Source: Verrucomicrobiota bacterium
Lineage (GTDB): Bacteria; Verrucomicrobiota; Verrucomicrobiia; Limisphaerales; VHCN01
Reading direction: 5' to 3'
Assembly (NCBI GenBank): GCA_016871675.1
Contig: VHCN01000012.1
Location: 1 to 64,000, forward strand
DNA: 64,000 nucleotides
Under the pieces are notes generated by a model. It worked only from the letters and a program-made list of their open reading frames with translations, did no database searches and was not told where the DNA came from. Of this stretch, positions 17,012-64,000 are shown piece after piece; position 1 is the stretch's first letter; each line of letters begins with the position of its first letter. Both the position numbers and the translations under genes were made by a program.

Positions 17012-18325
17012 CTACACGTTGAGCTCGCGGGCCGGTTGCGCCGGATCCGCGGCGGAATCCGCCTCGGCGAGATAGTCGGCGATGTGCAGGACGCGCACGT
17101 GTCCCGCCCCGGCGCGCGCGAGTCCGGCGCGAATTTGCAGGAGGCAGCCGGGATTCGTGGTGACCACGATGCGCGCGCCCGTGCGGAGGATGTGCTCGAC
17201 CTTGCGCCGTTGCAGGCGCGCGGCCATTTCGGGTTCCGTCAAATTGTAGCTGCCCGCGCTGCCGCAGCAGACATCCGACTCGGCGAGTTCGATGAATTTC
17301 GCGCCCGCGACCGCCTTCACAAGGTCGCGCGGCTGCCGCGTGATGCGCTGCGGGTGCGCAAGGTGGCAGGCGTCGTGGTAGGTGACGGGCGAATGGCGGA
17401 TTGAAGCAGCCCCGTCGCCGGCCTTGGGGACAACCGGCAACCGGCAATCGGCGACGGGCAACACTTCCGTCAAATCCTTCACCTTCGCGCTGAACGCCGC
17501 CGCGCGGTCGCGCCACGCGGGGTCGTCGTGCAAGAGGTGGCCGTATTCCTTGAGCGTCGAGCCGCAGCCGGCGGCGTTGATGACGATGGCGTCGAGGCCG
17601 CGCGGCTCGAAGACGGCGATGTTCCGGCGCGCGCACGCGCGGGCCCCGGCGAGATTGCCACCATGCGCAAAGAGCGCGCCGCAGCACCCCTGCTCCGCGG
17701 GGGTGACCACGTCGAACCCCGCGCGGTTGAGCTGGCGCACGCTGCTTGCGTTGGTTCCGCCGAACATCACGCTCATCACACAGCCGGAGATGAATCCGAC
17801 CTTGCCGCGCGCCGGTTGCGCGACTGCGGGCGATTCGGCGGGCAGCTTGGACTCGCTCGCGTCGTCGGGAATCAGGTCGAGCGCATCCCGCACGAAGCCC
17901 GGGAGCAACGGCGACGCACCGAAGAACTTGACGAGCTTCGCCGGCAGGAGCGCGCGTTTCATCCGCCGCGGGTGCGGGAAGATCTTCTCGATGACGAACC
18001 GCCGCAGCACGCGCTGCAATAAAGGCCGGCGATGATGGCGCTCGATGTGATCACGGGAAGCCTCGAGCAGCGCGCCATATTGCACGCCACTCGGGCAGGC
18101 GGTCTCGCAAGCGCGGCAGCCGAGGCACAAGTCCACGTGGCGCACGGCCGCGCCGTCCGCCGGCAGTCGGCCGGACTGCATCGCGCGCATGAGGTAGATG
18201 CGGCCGCGCGGGGAGTCGTTCTCGTTGCCCGTTTCGAGATACGTCGGGCACGCGCCGAGGCACAGCCCGCAGTGGACACACGCGAGTGCCTGCCTCTCGT
18301 CGAGAAATGATTCCGGGGTGGGCAT
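17012..18325 (-). CDS. glcF: glycolate oxidase iron-sulfur subunit
   Basis: This 437-residue GlcF-type protein passes electrons from glycolate oxidation to the membrane. It has two 4Fe-4S motifs (C16/C19/C22/C26 in CVHCGLCLGACP; C67/C70/C73/C77 in CLGCRACETACPSG). Two CCG domains follow (GCVMSVMFGGTN...EQGCCGALFAHGG and YHDACHLAH...DVCCGSAGSYNL). Residues about 288-315 (VADCRLPVVPKAGDG...) come from a heptad repeat in the DNA (17382-17463) and are not expected in the family. Its start shares one base with the glcE stop (TGATG). The glycolate-binding subunit GlcD is not in the window. Confidence 0.87.
   Translation of the reverse strand: MPTPESFLDERQALACVHCGLCLGACPTYLETGNENDSPRGRIYLMRAMQSGRLPADGAAVRHVDLCLGCRACETACPSGVQYGALLEASRDHIERHHRRPLLQRVLRRFVIEKIFPHPRRMKRALLPAKLVKFFGASPLLPGFVRDALDLIPDDASESKLPAESPAVAQPARGKVGFISGCVMSVMFGGTNASSVRQLNRAGFDVVTPAEQGCCGALFAHGGNLAGARACARRNIAVFEPRGLDAIVINAAGCGSTLKEYGHLLHDDPAWRDRAAAFSAKVKDLTEVLPVADCRLPVVPKAGDGAASIRHSPVTYHDACHLAHPQRITRQPRDLVKAVAGAKFIELAESDVCCGSAGSYNLTEPEMAARLQRRKVEHILRTGARIVVTTNPGCLLQIRAGLARAGAGHVRVLHIADYLAEADSAADPAQPARELNV
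17382..17463. repeat. 7-bp-period repeat inside glcF
   Basis: On the coding (minus) strand, heptads of consensus GRTTGCC run through 17431-17463 (GATTGCC, then GGTTGCC). A second related block (AATCCGC, CATTCGC) lies at about 17382-17405. Because the inserted length keeps the frame, glcF gains about 28 low-complexity residues between its two CCG domains. Confidence 0.65.
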
Positions 18326-42412: not shown

Positions 42413-43464
42413 ACTGCCGATTGCCGGTTGCCGGTTGCCGATTGAGTTGCGTGGTCGCGTCCGCCGCGATGCATCTCGCGGGTTTCTTTCCGGGCGCCCT
42501 CCGCGCGGCGGAGCCCGCCAGACCCGCGCCGTTTCAAGAGGTGCTTGGGCTCATCCGGTCGAATCTCCCGGGCGCGAAGGCCGAGGAACTCGACCACGCG
42601 GCGTTGCAAGGCCTGCTCGAACGTCACCGCGGCCGCGTCCTGCTCGCGAATGCCGCCTCGGCCGCTGCTTCGGCCGGAGGCATGGCTCGGACAAACGTCT
42701 TCGACGAGGCATTTGCCAGCTTGCGCATCGCGACGGTGGGGGCGGGCTCGGCGGAGCAGGTGCGCGGCGCGTTCGACCAGCTAAACGCCGCGAAAAAACT
42801 CAAAGGCCTCGTGCTCGACTTGCGCGGGGCGAAGGGCTCCGATTATTCGGCGGCCGTCGCGGTGGCGGATTTGTTTCTCGACGGGGAAAAGCCGCAGCTC
42901 GAAGTCGCGGGGAAGACGCTCCGGTCGACCTCGAAAGCGACGGCGATCTCGCTGCCCGTGGCCATCCTCATGAACCGCCAGACCTCGGGCGCGGCCGAGG
43001 CGCTGGCGGCCTTGCTCCGGCAGAATCGCACGGGGCTCTTGATCGGCGGCGTGACCGCGGGCGAGGCGTTTTTGTTCAAGGACTTTCCGCTCAGCACGGG
43101 GCAGCAACTGCGCATCGCGACCGGTTCGGTGCGGCTCGCGGGCGGGGCCGCGCTCACGGGCGATGGCCTTCGGCCCGATGTGCCGGTGCTCGTGAGTCTC
43201 GAGGATGAGCGGTTGTTCATGGAGGACGCGTTTCGCGAGGCGAAGCCCGCCGCCGAGGCGGCCGGACCGCTTGTCAGCGCGAATCCACCGCGCAAGCGGC
43301 TCAACGAGGCGGAACTCGTCCGCCGCCAAAAGGAAGGCGACTCCGGTGACGGGCCCCCTGCGGTTGCGGAGCCTGCGAAGCCGCTCGTGCGTGATCCAGC
43401 GCTCGGCCGCGCGCTCGATCTGCTCAAGGGGCTCGCCGTCGTGGGCCGGGCCCGGCCGCTTTAG
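42409..43464 (+). CDS. S41-like (tail-specific protease fold) protein, catalytic Lys replaced
   Basis: This 351-residue exported protein resembles the core of C-terminal processing peptidases. GLVLDLRGAKGSDYSAAVAVADLF, PVAILMNRQTSGAAEALAALL and a following GLLIGGVTAGEAF are typical. The presumed nucleophile is S193 in TSGAAE. The Lys normally found in the TxGK motif is Glu (E219), so activity is doubtful. There is no PDZ domain. The first 15 codons are a heptad repeat overlapping the purD stop; a start at 42469 (MHLAGFFPGALRAAEP, a better signal peptide) is an equal option. Confidence 0.72.
   Translation: MNCRLPVAGCRLSCVVASAAMHLAGFFPGALRAAEPARPAPFQEVLGLIRSNLPGAKAEELDHAALQGLLERHRGRVLLANAASAAASAGGMARTNVFDEAFASLRIATVGAGSAEQVRGAFDQLNAAKKLKGLVLDLRGAKGSDYSAAVAVADLFLDGEKPQLEVAGKTLRSTSKATAISLPVAILMNRQTSGAAEALAALLRQNRTGLLIGGVTAGEAFLFKDFPLSTGQQLRIATGSVRLAGGAALTGDGLRPDVPVLVSLEDERLFMEDAFREAKPAAEAAGPLVSANPPRKRLNEAELVRRQKEGDSGDGPPAVAEPAKPLVRDPALGRALDLLKGLAVVGRARPL
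42413..42447 (+). repeat. five heptads at the start of the S41-like gene
   Basis: Five 7-base units of consensus RTTGCCG (ATTGCCG, GTTGCCG twice, flanked by ACTGCCG and ATTGAGT) begin one base after the purD stop. They encode CRLPVAGCRLS if the upstream ATG is used. The same GRTTGCC unit occurs in glcF (17431-17463) and beside the MogA/MoaB gene. Confidence 0.75.
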
Positions 43465-60156: not shown

Positions 60157-61305
60157 TCAGAGCATCTCCAGCACGCGGCGCAATTCGTCGTCGGTGTTGT
60201 AGCAATGCGGTGAGAGCCGGAGATACTGCCGCCCTGTCCGGTCCGCGCGCAGCGAGGTGACGATGTTCGCGGCCGCAAGCTGCTTGTGGACGGCGGCCAC
60301 GTCCGCGTCCTTGCGGTGGAGGGAGAGGATGGCGCCGGCGTTTTCCCGCGGAGCCTTCGCGTGGAGCACGGACCATCCGTTGGCTTCGAGCGCGGGCACG
60401 AGCCACTGGCGCTTGCGCAAGAGCTCGGCGGCGATGTTCTCGACGCCCAGTTCGAGCAGCAGTTCCATGCAGGCTTTCAGGCCGACAAGCCCGGCGACGT
60501 TGTGCGAGCCGGCCTCGAACCGCGCCGGGCCGCTCCGGAACATGATCGCCTCCTGTGCGACGTAGTTCGGGCAGCGGACGTTGTTCCAGCCGAGCACGGG
60601 CGGGCGCAACCGCTCCTGCAGGTCCTTCTTCACGTAGAGAATGCCCGCGGCGCACGGGCCGAGCAGCCACTTGTGCGCGTCCGCCGCGAGGAAGTCCACG
60701 TGCTTCACCGGCGTCGGGAACGCGCCGAGCGTCTGGATGCCGTCCACGCAAAACAGGATGTTCCGCTCGCGCAGGCTGCGGCCGATGGCGTCGAGGTCGA
60801 GCCGCCAGCCCGCGACGAAGTGGCAGGAGGCGAGCGCGACCAGCCGTGTTTGCTCGTCCACCTGCCCCGCGACATCGAGCGGCCGGATGCGGCCGAGTTC
60901 GCGCGCGTTCAGCAACCGCACCTGCACGCCGCGGTCGGCCAGCGCCATCCACGGATACACGTTCGTCGGGTAGTCGTCGTGGTAGATGAGGACGTTGTCG
61001 CCCTTGCGGAACGGCAGGCTGGCTGCGACGAAGCTCAGCGCGAGCGAGGTCGGGCCGACGAAGGAAATCTCGTCCGGTTGCGCGCCGACGAGCCGCGCGG
61101 CGATGTCACGAGACTGGCGGAGGAGTTCGGGCAGGATCGTCTCCTGGTCGTCCTCGCTCGCGTTGAAGGCGTAGTGCGCCATCGCATCGGCGACGCGGCG
61201 GGGCAGCGGGCAGACGCCGGCGTGGCCGAGGAAAATCTTGGTTCGGGCGACGGGGAATTCTTCGCGACGGAGTTCCTCGCTGGAGAGGATTTCTGAAAGG
61301 GTCAT
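60157..61305 (-). CDS. class V aminotransferase (cysteine desulfurase-like)
   Basis: This is a 382-residue PLP enzyme. The fold type I core includes IFLGHAGVCPLPRRVADAM, FVGPTSLALSFVAASLP, SCHFVAGWRLDLDAIG, VDGIQTLGAFP and the PLP Lys in LAADAHKWLLGPCAAGILYV. It closes with RLSPHCYNTDDELRRVLEML. It groups with the SufS/kynureninase-like branch; the active-site Cys of desulfurases cannot be identified with certainty. The start overlaps gspF stop (ATGA). Confidence 0.87.
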   Translation of the reverse strand: MTLSEILSSEELRREEFPVARTKIFLGHAGVCPLPRRVADAMAHYAFNASEDDQETILPELLRQSRDIAARLVGAQPDEISFVGPTSLALSFVAASLPFRKGDNVLIYHDDYPTNVYPWMALADRGVQVRLLNARELGRIRPLDVAGQVDEQTRLVALASCHFVAGWRLDLDAIGRSLRERNILFCVDGIQTLGAFPTPVKHVDFLAADAHKWLLGPCAAGILYVKKDLQERLRPPVLGWNNVRCPNYVAQEAIMFRSGPARFEAGSHNVAGLVGLKACMELLLELGVENIAAELLRKRQWLVPALEANGWSVLHAKAPRENAGAILSLHRKDADVAAVHKQLAAANIVTSLRADRTGRQYLRLSPHCYNTDDELRRVLEML

Positions 61306-62435
61306 TTCTCGTTGATGATGTTTCCGATGGTGTTCATGTAGCCGCCGGCCAGGGCGAAGATCATCTTGATGATCATGAGGGCGATGAAGGCGTAGACGAC
61401 CCGCGGGGTCCATTCGGCCACGGCTTCCATTTTGCGCGTGCCTTCCTCCTGATGGTAGTCCTGCAGGCGGACGAGTGTGTCGTCCAACTGGCCGCTGATT
61501 TCGCCGGTGTGGTAGAGGTTCGCGAACATCTCGGGAATCTCGCTACAGTCGGGCAAGACTTCGCCCGGTGATTCGTCGCCCTGACTGACGCGCGGCAGCC
61601 ACTTCTCGACGGCGCGGCCGAGCGCGGGCGAGCCGGCGGCCTTGGAGCCCATCTCCCAACTGTGCACGAGGTTCACGCCGGCGGAGAGCATCGCCTCGAT
61701 GGACATGGCGAGCCGCGCGAGCGCAAGGTGCTTCCACGCCTGCCCCGCCAGATACAGCAGCCACGCGACGGCGGGGCCGACGAACAGCCAGTTCCAGAAC
61801 CAGCCGTCCGCGCCGGGGACAACCGTCGAAAGCAGGAACAGGCCTCCCGCGACGACGAGATAAGTGACCGGGCTCCAGCGACAGGCTTTCTCGAGCAGTG
61901 CGCGCCAGAGTTGCCCCCAACGGCTCTGGCCTGCGAGCACCAGCGCGATGATGAGCGCGTAAGCGCAGACCAGCGGCGTGAGGGCTTGGATGAGATACTG
62001 GTCCGCCGTGATGGCTCCCTCGGGCCGGAGGAAGGCCGGCAGCGGGAAGATGAACACGGCCATGTGGAAGACAAGCGCCGGATACCACAGGCCGGAGAGG
62101 ACCTTGCGAGCGAGGACGGCCCGCTGGTTGTAGACTTTTTCGAGGATGTGGAAGCACTGGTCGAGCCGCCCGGAGCGTTCGCCCGCCTCGATGAGCGAGA
62201 GGTCGAACGGCGCGAGCCAGCCGCGGGTCTGCCGGAGCCCGTCGATGAACGTGGAACCGAGCTGGATGGACTCCAGCACCGTGCCAATGGGCTTGCGGTC
62301 GCCGTAAGAAGGCGGGGACTTCTTGAGCATCTCCAGCGCCTTGACGAGCGGCACGCCCGCAACCGTCAGCGCGCGCGCCTGATGGTAAAGCTCGGCGCGG
62401 CTCGCGAGCTGGCCAGGCAGGAAAACGATTGCCAC
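61302..62435 (-). CDS. gspF: type II secretion system protein F
   Basis: This is a 377-residue inner-membrane platform protein with two T2SSF domains. The first is LYHQARALTVAGVPLVKALEML... with LIEAGERSGRLDQCFHILEKVYNQRAVLARKV. The second is SIEAMLSAGVNLVHSWEM...NLYHTGEISGQLDDTLVRLQDY. Three membrane helices are present. It works with pseudopilins and an ATPase to export proteins or build pili. No other core gene (GspE, GspD, prepilin peptidase) is in the window. Confidence 0.88.
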   Translation of the reverse strand: MAIVFLPGQLASRAELYHQARALTVAGVPLVKALEMLKKSPPSYGDRKPIGTVLESIQLGSTFIDGLRQTRGWLAPFDLSLIEAGERSGRLDQCFHILEKVYNQRAVLARKVLSGLWYPALVFHMAVFIFPLPAFLRPEGAITADQYLIQALTPLVCAYALIIALVLAGQSRWGQLWRALLEKACRWSPVTYLVVAGGLFLLSTVVPGADGWFWNWLFVGPAVAWLLYLAGQAWKHLALARLAMSIEAMLSAGVNLVHSWEMGSKAAGSPALGRAVEKWLPRVSQGDESPGEVLPDCSEIPEMFANLYHTGEISGQLDDTLVRLQDYHQEEGTRKMEAVAEWTPRVVYAFIALMIIKMIFALAGGYMNTIGNIINEK

Positions 62436-62500
62436 GTGGGAGAAAGTGCGCGAACCGGCCGTGGCGTGGCAAGCGCGGAGGGAGGGGGAACGGGCCGGTC

Positions 62501-62555
62501 TTCAGTTTTCAGTATTCAGACCCGGCGGTGTTTGCAACCGCCTGAACACTGAACT
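62501..62555. repeat. inverted pair of 7-bp-period repeats between trx and gspF
   Basis: The left arm has three heptads starting TTCAG (62501-62521). The right arm has CTGAACA and CTGAACT (62542-62555). Over the core 12 bases the arms are complementary with one mismatch. Inside lies a second stem (GGCGGT with ACCGCC). The whole can fold into one hairpin downstream of the thioredoxin stop and may act as a terminator or mRNA stabiliser. Confidence 0.7.
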
Positions 62556-62576
62556 GTGCTTGCTTCCGGCCACCGC

Positions 62577-62909
62577 TCAAGCAGCGGCCTTGTCGAGGCT
62601 GGCCTTCAAGTCCTTCTTGGTCTTGAGGCCGACGGTTTGCTCGATCACCTCGCCGCCCTTGAAGAAGAGCAGGGCGGGAATGGCGTTGATGCGGTATTGG
62701 GCGGCGAGCATGCCGTTGTCGTCCACGTTGACCTTCCCAATCTTGACCTTGCCGGCGTATTCGCCCGCGAGTTCGTCGAGCACCGGCCCGAGCATTTTGC
62801 ACGGTCCGCACCACTCGGCCCAAAAGTCCACGAGCACGGGCGTGGCGGACTTGAGCACTTCGGCGTCAAAGTTCGATTCGGTCAGGGTGACAATATTCGG
62901 AGCTGCCAT
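62577..62909 (-). CDS. trxA: thioredoxin
   Basis: This is a 110-residue protein with the WCGPC site (W33-C37) in VDFWAEWCGPCKMLGPVL, the cis-Pro segment NAIPALLFFKGG and the full thioredoxin fold. The start MAAPNIVTL at 62909 gives the usual length. It reduces cytoplasmic disulfides and may feed the DsbD-like carrier at 57895-60075. Confidence 0.95.
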   Translation of the reverse strand: MAAPNIVTLTESNFDAEVLKSATPVLVDFWAEWCGPCKMLGPVLDELAGEYAGKVKIGKVNVDDNGMLAAQYRINAIPALLFFKGGEVIEQTVGLKTKKDLKASLDKAAA

Positions 62910-62971
62910 ATCAAGGGGATATCGATGGAGGTTGAAGCGGGTGAGACTTGGAACGCCCTGCTCGCGCCGGA

Positions 62972-63673
62972 TCAGAATCCGATGTGCCGGACGAGGTTCC
63001 CCAAGGCCGCCGCGGCTGCGAGGAACGCGATGATGGCCAGCGCGATGTCCCACTTGCTGGCTTTGCCGGGGACTGCCACCGCAGCTTCCTTCTTCTCCTT
63101 GACCGCGCCCTTTTCACGGCTCGCGGCGGGCAGGACGACGGAGGCCTTCGAGGCGACCGTCGGGGCCGCGGTCTGTGCGACGGGGGCCATCGTGACGGCA
63201 TCGGCGCCATCCGAGGGCATCACGGCGGGGGCCTCGGCTTTCGCCGCGCCCGGCTTGGCTGGCATCGTGGGCTTGGGCGGACCGGCAGGCCTGGCCGGAG
63301 CGGGCGTGTGCTGCAAAGTCACCATCTCCGCGGGGTTGGGAATTTTTACCGTCTTGCTCGCATCATCCACTTGGGGAACGACGAGGCTGATCGTGGGGCC
63401 GGACTGGGGAAGGTTGGGTTTCGGCGCGGCACTGGCGCCCAACGCCGGGGCCGGAGCCATCGCAGGCGCGCCTGGGGCGGGTCGAGGAGGGAGTTCGAGC
63501 CGGACGGTTTCCTTCGCAGCAGGTTTGGGAGGAAGTTCGAGACGCACAGTCTCTTTCGCCGTCGGTTTTGGCGGAAGGCTGATACGAACCGTCTCCTTCT
63601 TGGGCTGAACTTTGGATACCTCGGCCGGTTTTGGCGGGGCAGCTCCGGCCGGCATGTTCAGGTTGTCGGACAT
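62972..63673 (-). CDS. C-terminally anchored Pro/Ala-rich protein with triple TVRL motif
   Basis: This 233-residue protein has three tandem units near the N-terminus: KETVRISLPPKP, KETVRLELPPKP and KETVRLELPPRP (about 26-65). A long Pro/Ala-rich disordered region follows, with one membrane helix at the very C-terminus (about 207-226). The TVRLxLPPKP units look like binding motifs facing the cytoplasm in a tail-anchored protein. No catalytic domain exists. It lies 62 bases upstream of thioredoxin on the same strand. I know of no functional assignment. Confidence 0.65.
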   Translation of the reverse strand: MSDNLNMPAGAAPPKPAEVSKVQPKKETVRISLPPKPTAKETVRLELPPKPAAKETVRLELPPRPAPGAPAMAPAPALGASAAPKPNLPQSGPTISLVVPQVDDASKTVKIPNPAEMVTLQHTPAPARPAGPPKPTMPAKPGAAKAEAPAVMPSDGADAVTMAPVAQTAAPTVASKASVVLPAASREKGAVKEKKEAAVAVPGKASKWDIALAIIAFLAAAAALGNLVRHIGF

Positions 63674-63851
63674 AGAGGAAGAATCTTGTGCTGCGGAAAG
63701 CTAGGGGTTGCGTGTTTACACTGTCAAACTCTTATTCCGCCATCGGGTTGCGTAGTTCGACGCACCGCTGGCCCGTTGGAAATCGTGTCGGAGATTCGTT
63801 AAATGCCATCGAGTCGTTGCCCGTCCACCTAGGCGTCGCTATGTTCCACTC

Positions 63852-64000
63852 ATGCACGTGAACGCTCTCGCGCCGGCCCTCGCGTTGCTCTGGGTTCCCG
63901 GATTCCTCTGCGCCGCCACGCCCAAGACGGCCGCGGACGCGACAAAGTTACCCGCCCCTTCCCGTGTGGCGGCGGACTTCTCTCGCGACATCCATCCACT
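63852..64000 (+). CDS. PSCyt1/DUF1549-type exported protein, start only
   Basis: From ATG 63852 (MHVNALAPALALLWVPGFLCAA, a signal peptide) the frame runs off the window at RVAADFSRDIHP. The phrase VxFSRDIxPIL is the standard opening of Planctomycete cytochrome c (PSCyt1) domains, which precede DUF1549/DUF1553 in large secreted proteins. The haem motif would lie just outside the window, so the call rests on this short match. Confidence 0.55.
   Translation, partial: MHVNALAPALALLWVPGFLCAATPKTAADATKLPAPSRVAADFSRDIHP

Follow-up and report, generated by a model that had tools for sequence, protein, structure and literature searches.

An inverted seven-base repeat element between thioredoxin and gspF in a Verrucomicrobiota lineage, one member of a widespread class of heptad repeats

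In Xanthomonas, heptamers of the sequence GGGAATC form convergent pairs of arrays, of which 70 are reported in Xcc and 75 in Xac (Rehm et al. 2015, PMC4692102). Direct repeats of the heptamer TAACTGA are described in Beggiatoaceae, Cyanobacteria and Bacteroidetes (MacGregor 2015, PMC4679880). Geobacter metallireducens exhibits heptanucleotide elements of four or five tandem copies, at 16-49 places for each class, and some of these are drawn with a switch of strand (PMC2700814). Both PMC4679880 and PMC4692102 relay an idea of 2007, according to which a seven-base contact of the polymerase favours slippage. The suggestion of the first-pass annotation of our sequence, that a process acting in a seven-base register lies behind such repeats, was thus already in print.

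The element reported here is genuine, was most likely gained in this lineage and belongs to a widespread class of heptad repeats. It is one copy of an intergenic class in which two arms of seven-base words face inward across an unrelated loop. This class shares with the Xanthomonas GGGAATC arrays the seven-base unit and a dispersed, mostly intergenic location near ORFs; the length of the GGGAATC arrays varies between related genomes (PMC4692102). Xanthomonas, however, uses a single G-rich unit capable of quadruplex formation, whereas we observe many units, an AT-rich one in the element under study, a grammar of core plus variable bases and a distribution over a wide range of phyla. No G-tract for a quadruplex is present in the unit TTCAGTN or in its complement. 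The TAACTGA repeats are likewise intergenic heptads, often mixed with other heptamers, and their other strand reads CAGTTAT, a word with the CAGT core discussed below. They differ in being nearly always direct (169 direct sets and one indirect set in the type genome) and in lying mostly just upstream of start codons (PMC4679880). The Geobacter elements have a fixed consensus for each class, and their authors interpreted them as sites for regulators or as elements of RNA; the sections that describe them make no claim of a general class with period 7 (PMC2700814). Like REP/BIME sequences, the elements are short extragenic palindromes, mainly between co-directional or convergent genes and often in pairs of opposite orientation (PMC3733652); unlike them, they do not exhibit a fixed palindrome of 20-40 bp with a GTAG or CGTC tag, REP/BIME has no heptads, and the RAYT transposase to which GTAG is tied is absent here. 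Finally, the Omega/ParB sites of plasmid pSM19035 also consist of contiguous unspaced 7-bp repeats, direct or inverted (PMC9499535). Those sites form a plasmid centromere of 7-10 contiguous heptads bound by a known protein, whereas the present arrays are short, chromosomal, of many families and arranged as two arms and a loop. A search of the open-access literature found no description of an inward element with a CAGT core, of the grammar of core plus free base, or of its spread; heptad strings matched no repeat paper by title in the full-text literature, no work on heptanucleotide repeats in Verrucomicrobia was found, and the part of PMC4060949 available to us makes no statement on heptamers. 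Inverted heptamers (GGGAATC) and TAACTGA arrays are already known, and the CAGT-core inward element is a fresh variant.

The window, that is the whole analysed stretch of 64,000 nucleotides, carries this element at positions 62501-62556, between the genes for thioredoxin and for a type II secretion system protein F homologue (gspF), with TTCAGTTTTCAGTATTCAG opposite CTGAACACTGAACTG across the loop. The forward arm (62501-62519, plus strand) reads TTCAGT-T-TTCAGT-A-TTCAG, with the core CAGT and one free base per heptad; it matches TTCAGTNTTCAGTNTTCAG exactly, and TRF assigns to it a period of 7 and 2.7 copies. The inverted arm (62542-62556, minus strand) reads CTGAA-C-ACTGAA-CTG on the plus strand and CAGTTCAGTGTTCAG on the minus strand. 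A pattern search places a one-mismatch site on the minus strand at 62541-62553, and a scan for the inward pattern matched across 62501-62553. Inside the loop, a GC-rich hairpin (62524-62542) pairs GGCGGT (62524-62529) with ACCGCC (62537-62542) around a 7-base loop, its last base being the first base of the inverted arm (62542). The window contains four strict lag-7 arrays, one of which is accompanied by an inverted 12-mer no more than 60 bp away. In dinucleotide-preserving shuffles of the window (n = 150) the mean number of lag-7 arrays was 0.47, and an array with an inverted partner appeared in 3 of the 150. Direct reading, TRF and these shuffles agree with the first-pass annotation in finding a period-7 TTCAGTN unit with inverted arms; the location that it gave, 62501-62555, also stands except at its end, since the inverted arm runs one base further (62556). 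The two arrays are convergent and close together, as in Xanthomonas, and head-to-tail seven-base units exceed chance both in the window (TRF, shuffles) and in the genome sample described below. Elsewhere in the window, a repeat with a 42-bp period and 2.7 copies (63486-63599) adjoins an ORF called at 62972-63460.

The element lies in a spacer whose neighbours could be compared among relatives, namely 57 genomes of the same order, all from other families (58 with our own). Upstream is the thioredoxin gene (62577-62909, minus strand; PF00085, E-value = 9e-34), which is present in all 58 genomes searched, and downstream is gspF (61302-62435, minus strand; PF00482, E-value = 1e-28). The gene calls are home-made, with uncertain start positions. 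Thioredoxin followed by a T2SS F-like gene (61302-62909 in the window) is a conserved pair, found at 28 of the 30 loci taken in the order, our own included. The spacer between the two genes (62436-62576, minus strand) is 141 bp long in our genome, compared with 8-46 bp in 25 of the 27 relatives having the gene pair; the two remaining relatives have spacers of 85 and 139 bp. A strict lag-7 array was found in none of the 27. Because the relatives' spacers are short and none of them carries an array, about 120 bp including the element were most likely added at this conserved junction in the present lineage, as judged from sequence comparison.

Searching the genome with TTCAGTNTTCAGTNTTCAG returned 3 exact matches, and 28 when as many as two mismatches were allowed; a reversed-letter control gave 2. 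The TTCAG matches correspond to 15 loci, seven with a single arm and eight with two arms, and all eight two-armed loci point inwards. When the window spacer was compared by BLAST with the other TTCAG loci of the genome, the matches spanned at most 34 bases and had E-values of 0.07 or more, the best being a 19-mer inside an arm. These short and weak matches indicate that the loops are not shared among the loci; the same search revealed no conserved interior of the MITE or IS kind. The heptad arms alone recur, and no conserved whole palindrome bearing a GTAG or CGTC tag was found. The Y1/RAYT transposase domain PF01797 has no match in our genome (G000, 96.9% complete) and at least one match in 49 of the 58 genomes searched. 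The nearest pairs of filled and empty sites for a target-site duplication come from other families or from species about 78% identical. A short mobile REP- or MITE-type palindrome, served by a transposase in trans, would fit the gain at the conserved trx-gspF junction, the presence and absence of elements between Flavobacterium species (see below) and the genome G049, where 41 of the 42 listed matches (e.g. L119-L122) are exactly TTCAGTGTTCAGTTTTCAG, as expected of a spreading sequence. Given the unrelated loops, the lack of PF01797 in our genome and the many unit sequences that share one design, we nevertheless consider such a palindrome distinctly unlikely.

The first-pass annotation had extended the inverted design to the GRTTGCC arrays. 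This does not hold as a rule: an opposite-strand site lies within about 150 bp at only 2 of their 17 own-genome loci. The GRTTGCC arrays are mostly single arms (L029-L058 in the genome sample; 42413-42446 and 17429-17455 in the window). Four of them, in the CAAYCGG orientation, stop 2-14 nt short of a called start codon. Ten of the 17 arms are inside called ORFs, and the intergenic ones all point away from the nearest gene edge (7/7).

The preference for a period of seven was analysed in a sample of 864 kb of our genome (40 stretches of 20 kb and the window), comprising 529 spacers and 80,444 bp of intergenic sequence. We counted 18 strict intergenic tandem arrays with lag 7 and 11 with lag 14. 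Each of the remaining lags between 4 and 20 gives 0-5, and shuffled spacers yield 0.4 at lag 7. Bulk intergenic autocorrelation exhibits no peak in the same sample, with 0.2762 at lag 7 versus 0.2721-0.2781 at lags 4, 5, 8 and 10. The first-pass annotation had named the absence of a lag-7 peak as its refutation; strict local arrays do have the peak, although the bulk measure lacks it, and the proposal is not refuted on this count. In coding sequence there are 18 arrays at lag 7, compared with 11 at lag 5, 10 at lag 8, 57 at lag 6 and 39 at lag 9, so that coding DNA, which makes up about nine tenths of the sample, has no comparable lag-7 peak. The units in our genome are many, AGTTCAA, CATTCCG, GATTAGT, TTTCCGN, CCACCAT, GRTTGCC and CAGTNTT among them, in keeping with the earlier claim of a constant period with a changing unit. 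In the relative G017 (333 kb, in stretches mostly picked for TTCAG hits) 69 arrays were found at lag 7, versus 0-19 at all other lags except 14. Some arrays of our genome and of G017 are near-perfect. Blocks such as five copies of AACCTCG followed by four of AACCTTG were also met. One inverted heptad element of our genome (L069 6024-6118, on C11) contains AATCACT AATCACT AATTACT, near the Omega/ParB heptad WATCACW.

Within the units a short core is kept while the remainder is freer. In 258 units beyond the stretch that the search itself imposed, the letters of AGT are conserved at 95-97%, and the free base is T in 52%, G in 28%, A in 19% and C in 2%; the lower conservation at other unit positions is partly due to arms that start at AGT. 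Imperfect arrays, defined by a 4-base core over four successive units, are most numerous at period 7 in each of four data sets: 17 in our genome, 51 in G017, 214 in 120 named loci (which had been selected for the TTCAG design) and 23 in Flavobacterium, against at most 4, 4, 18 and 2, respectively, at periods 6 and 8-12. Four successive GATTNNN units are present in 38 of the 58 genomes of the order, for a reversed-letter control that mostly gave no hit and gave 5-26 hits in three genomes. Four-base cores with a free remainder at an exact period of 7, and an AGT so much better kept than the free base, would be expected of sites bound by a protein that lines up along DNA or RNA at a seven-base pitch, with one paralogue per core family and the free bases between contacts. 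There is a precedent in the Omega ParB protein, a ribbon-helix-helix protein on contiguous WATCACW heptads, whether these are direct or inverted (PMC9499535), and the WATCACW-like array of our genome points the same way. However, the dozens of unit families in a genome would call for dozens of proteins, and Omega accepts mixed heptad orders, whereas the arms described here hold one polarity. A binding protein is a serious alternative, though in our judgement a rather unlikely one.

The free base is not distributed at random along an arm. Neighbouring units differ at this base in the arrays of the window, and among 15 two-armed elements of G017 they are alike in only 16 of 80 cases (random expectation 0.37, P = 0.001). 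Next-but-one units of G017 are alike in 25 of 50 (random expectation about 0.37), which amounts to a period-14 alternation. In 108 arrays other than TTCAG, mismatches gather at one heptad position, with 144 same-position pairs versus 107 (sd 9), a real but modest excess to which the array ends add noise. Simple seven-base slippage, one of the processes named in the first-pass annotation, is at odds with the avoidance of identity in G017 and with the many arrays that share a core alone. An arbitrary unit sequence is likewise not supported, given the recurrence of the CAGT core across many phyla and of GATT in 38 of the 58 genomes. Slippage as the sole process is unlikely; it may still be the source, because identical neighbours may simply get deleted.

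Copying of one arm from the other by fold-back synthesis was rejected. Counted from the outer end, the free bases of the two G017 arms match at 0.435 compared with 0.404 after permutation (46 cells, P = 0.33), and counted from the inner end at 0.348 compared with 0.390. An excess of 0.57 over 0.35 was discarded, as it pooled genomes differing in base preference. None of five other groups exhibits a clear arm-to-arm excess (P ≥ 0.09), one group being invariant, and free-base covariation between arms is absent.

The inward polarity extends well beyond our genome. The inward arrangement TTCAGTNTTCAG-gap-CTGAANACTGAA occurs in at least 120 stretches of a named collection, and the titles among the matches listed include Acidobacteria, Planctomycetota, Chloroflexi, Verrucomicrobia, Proteobacteria, Bacteroidetes, Omnitrophota and others. 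In a sample across phyla, 8 of 240 genomes, our own included, exhibit the inward pattern, and none of the 240 the outward control. Arms with a GATT core form 10 inward and 0 outward pairs in 2.57 Mb, where the counts of TTCAG pairs are biased by the 120 loci chosen for their inward design. Most other cores give counts of at most 4 in these 2.57 Mb, mostly one-sided, with GAAC/GTTC, GTAA and AGTA mixed. Inward elements are also borne by contigs titled Klebsiella pneumoniae MAG (L148, L201), a label that may reflect a mis-binned MAG. In G049, four copies that were read start with AGTTTTCAGTGTTCAG, two of them continuing into a GTYTCAN-like stretch, and resemble one spreading sequence. The consistent polarity bears on whether these arrays are ordinary heptanucleotide microsatellites produced by polymerase slippage, the facing arm being incidental. 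In most genomes with abundant repeats of 5-11 nt, heptamers are described as the most frequent long simple repeats, and a seven-base polymerase footprint has been proposed (Mrazek 2007, as relayed by PMC4679880 and PMC4692102); the AACCTCG/AACCTTG array indeed resembles unit duplication. Yet every two-armed locus of our genome points inwards, no outward pattern was met in the 240 genomes, and G017 neighbours avoid identity at the free base, so that we hold a plain microsatellite origin to be very doubtful.

Arrays are placed among genes without singling out terminators. In G017, 33 of 189 spacers carry an array (26 of the 132 co-directional, 4 of the 25 convergent and 3 of the 32 divergent ones), and in our own sample 14 of 493 (10 of 321, 1 of 70 and 3 of 102, respectively), the nearest gene edge being often within about 20 nt of the element. 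Single arms point away from that edge in 14 of 23 cases in G017 and 12 of 16 in our genome (seven partly overlapping cores), which is only suggestive of a rule. The RNA of 62490-62570 is predicted to fold at -28.8 kcal/mol (z = -2.1), an equal stability being reached in 8 of 200 shuffles. Rfam covariance models gave no match up to E = 1 in 61000-64000, and no intrinsic terminator (GC-rich stem and T run) was found in 62300-62700. The trx transcript could carry the element as a 3'-end or attenuation hairpin, with the heptads as mere building material, in line with the frequent proximity to gene ends, with the predicted pairing of the arms and with one element of Flavobacterium ZT3R18 that surrounds an apparent intrinsic terminator hairpin. 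The window element, however, has no T-rich terminator, convergent genes are not enriched in either genome, and the free bases of the arms do not covary; such a hairpin is very unlikely to account for the element.

Turnover could be followed between Flavobacterium ZT3R18 and LB3P56. At one common intergenic site with flanks about 77-80% identical, each carries a two-armed element, made of the words AGTCTC/AGTTTTT in ZT3R18 and AGTGTTC/AGTATTC in LB3P56. At another junction, ZT3R18 has a GATT-type element of about 80 bp compared with about 10 bp in LB3P56, and an AACTTCT array is common to both almost letter for letter. At a further site, locus A, the ZT3R18 element occupies the whole gap from one convergent stop codon to the other; LB3P56 carries about 450 bp of other sequence there and offers no clean empty site. 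In ZT3R18 the element at L141 1032-1105 exactly spans the gap of two convergent genes, with both TAG stops inside AGT words. A search for orthologous sites within the family of G017 found no second genome. G017 further contains another dispersed repeat, about 97 bp long (L264 6282-6378), which occurs at several places with 72-84% identity.

We tentatively favour, as a possible though not a probable origin, a realignment in seven-base steps during DNA synthesis whose product is kept as an intercistronic inverted repeat. The specificity for lag 7, the arrays with a 4-base core, the gain in the window, the presence and absence in Flavobacterium, the inward polarity and the alternation are the reasons for this preference. 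A step of DNA synthesis would set words in a seven-base register: the growing 3' end probably slips back by seven bases and re-anneals through a short core (CAGT, GATT or others). The arrays would subsequently diverge outside the core, exactly identical neighbours would be lost by deletion, and alternating words would remain. Facing arms may be retained because their paired cores make an intercistronic inverted repeat, which in the RNA of either strand could, by analogy with what is thought for REP, be a processing or stability hairpin. Against realignment, the same core across phyla would be unexpected from a sequence-blind process, and copies made by slippage would be expected to be identical, whereas many differ. 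Against the retention step stand the lack of an Rfam match or a terminator-like site, the modest fold and the lack of covariation between the arms. A dedicated enzyme behind the seven-base period is neither shown nor excluded.

More broadly, it is conceivable, if a long shot, that one unrecognised system of many phyla writes or reads DNA in seven-base steps, with a core of about four bases, a free remainder and inward arms at gene boundaries, through a template-guided polymerase or protein families of seven-base pitch; the TAACTGA, GGGAATC and Geobacter heptads would then be instances of it. The preference of bacterial tandem repeats for units of seven bases has stood as an unexplained remark since 2007 (via PMC4679880 and PMC4692102). 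The inward polarity, the core with free bases, the alternation, the independence of the arms and the gain at the junction are concrete enough to separate slippage, a binding protein and an enzyme. If one cause underlies these regularities, it would account for a noticeable part of the intergenic DNA of several phyla.
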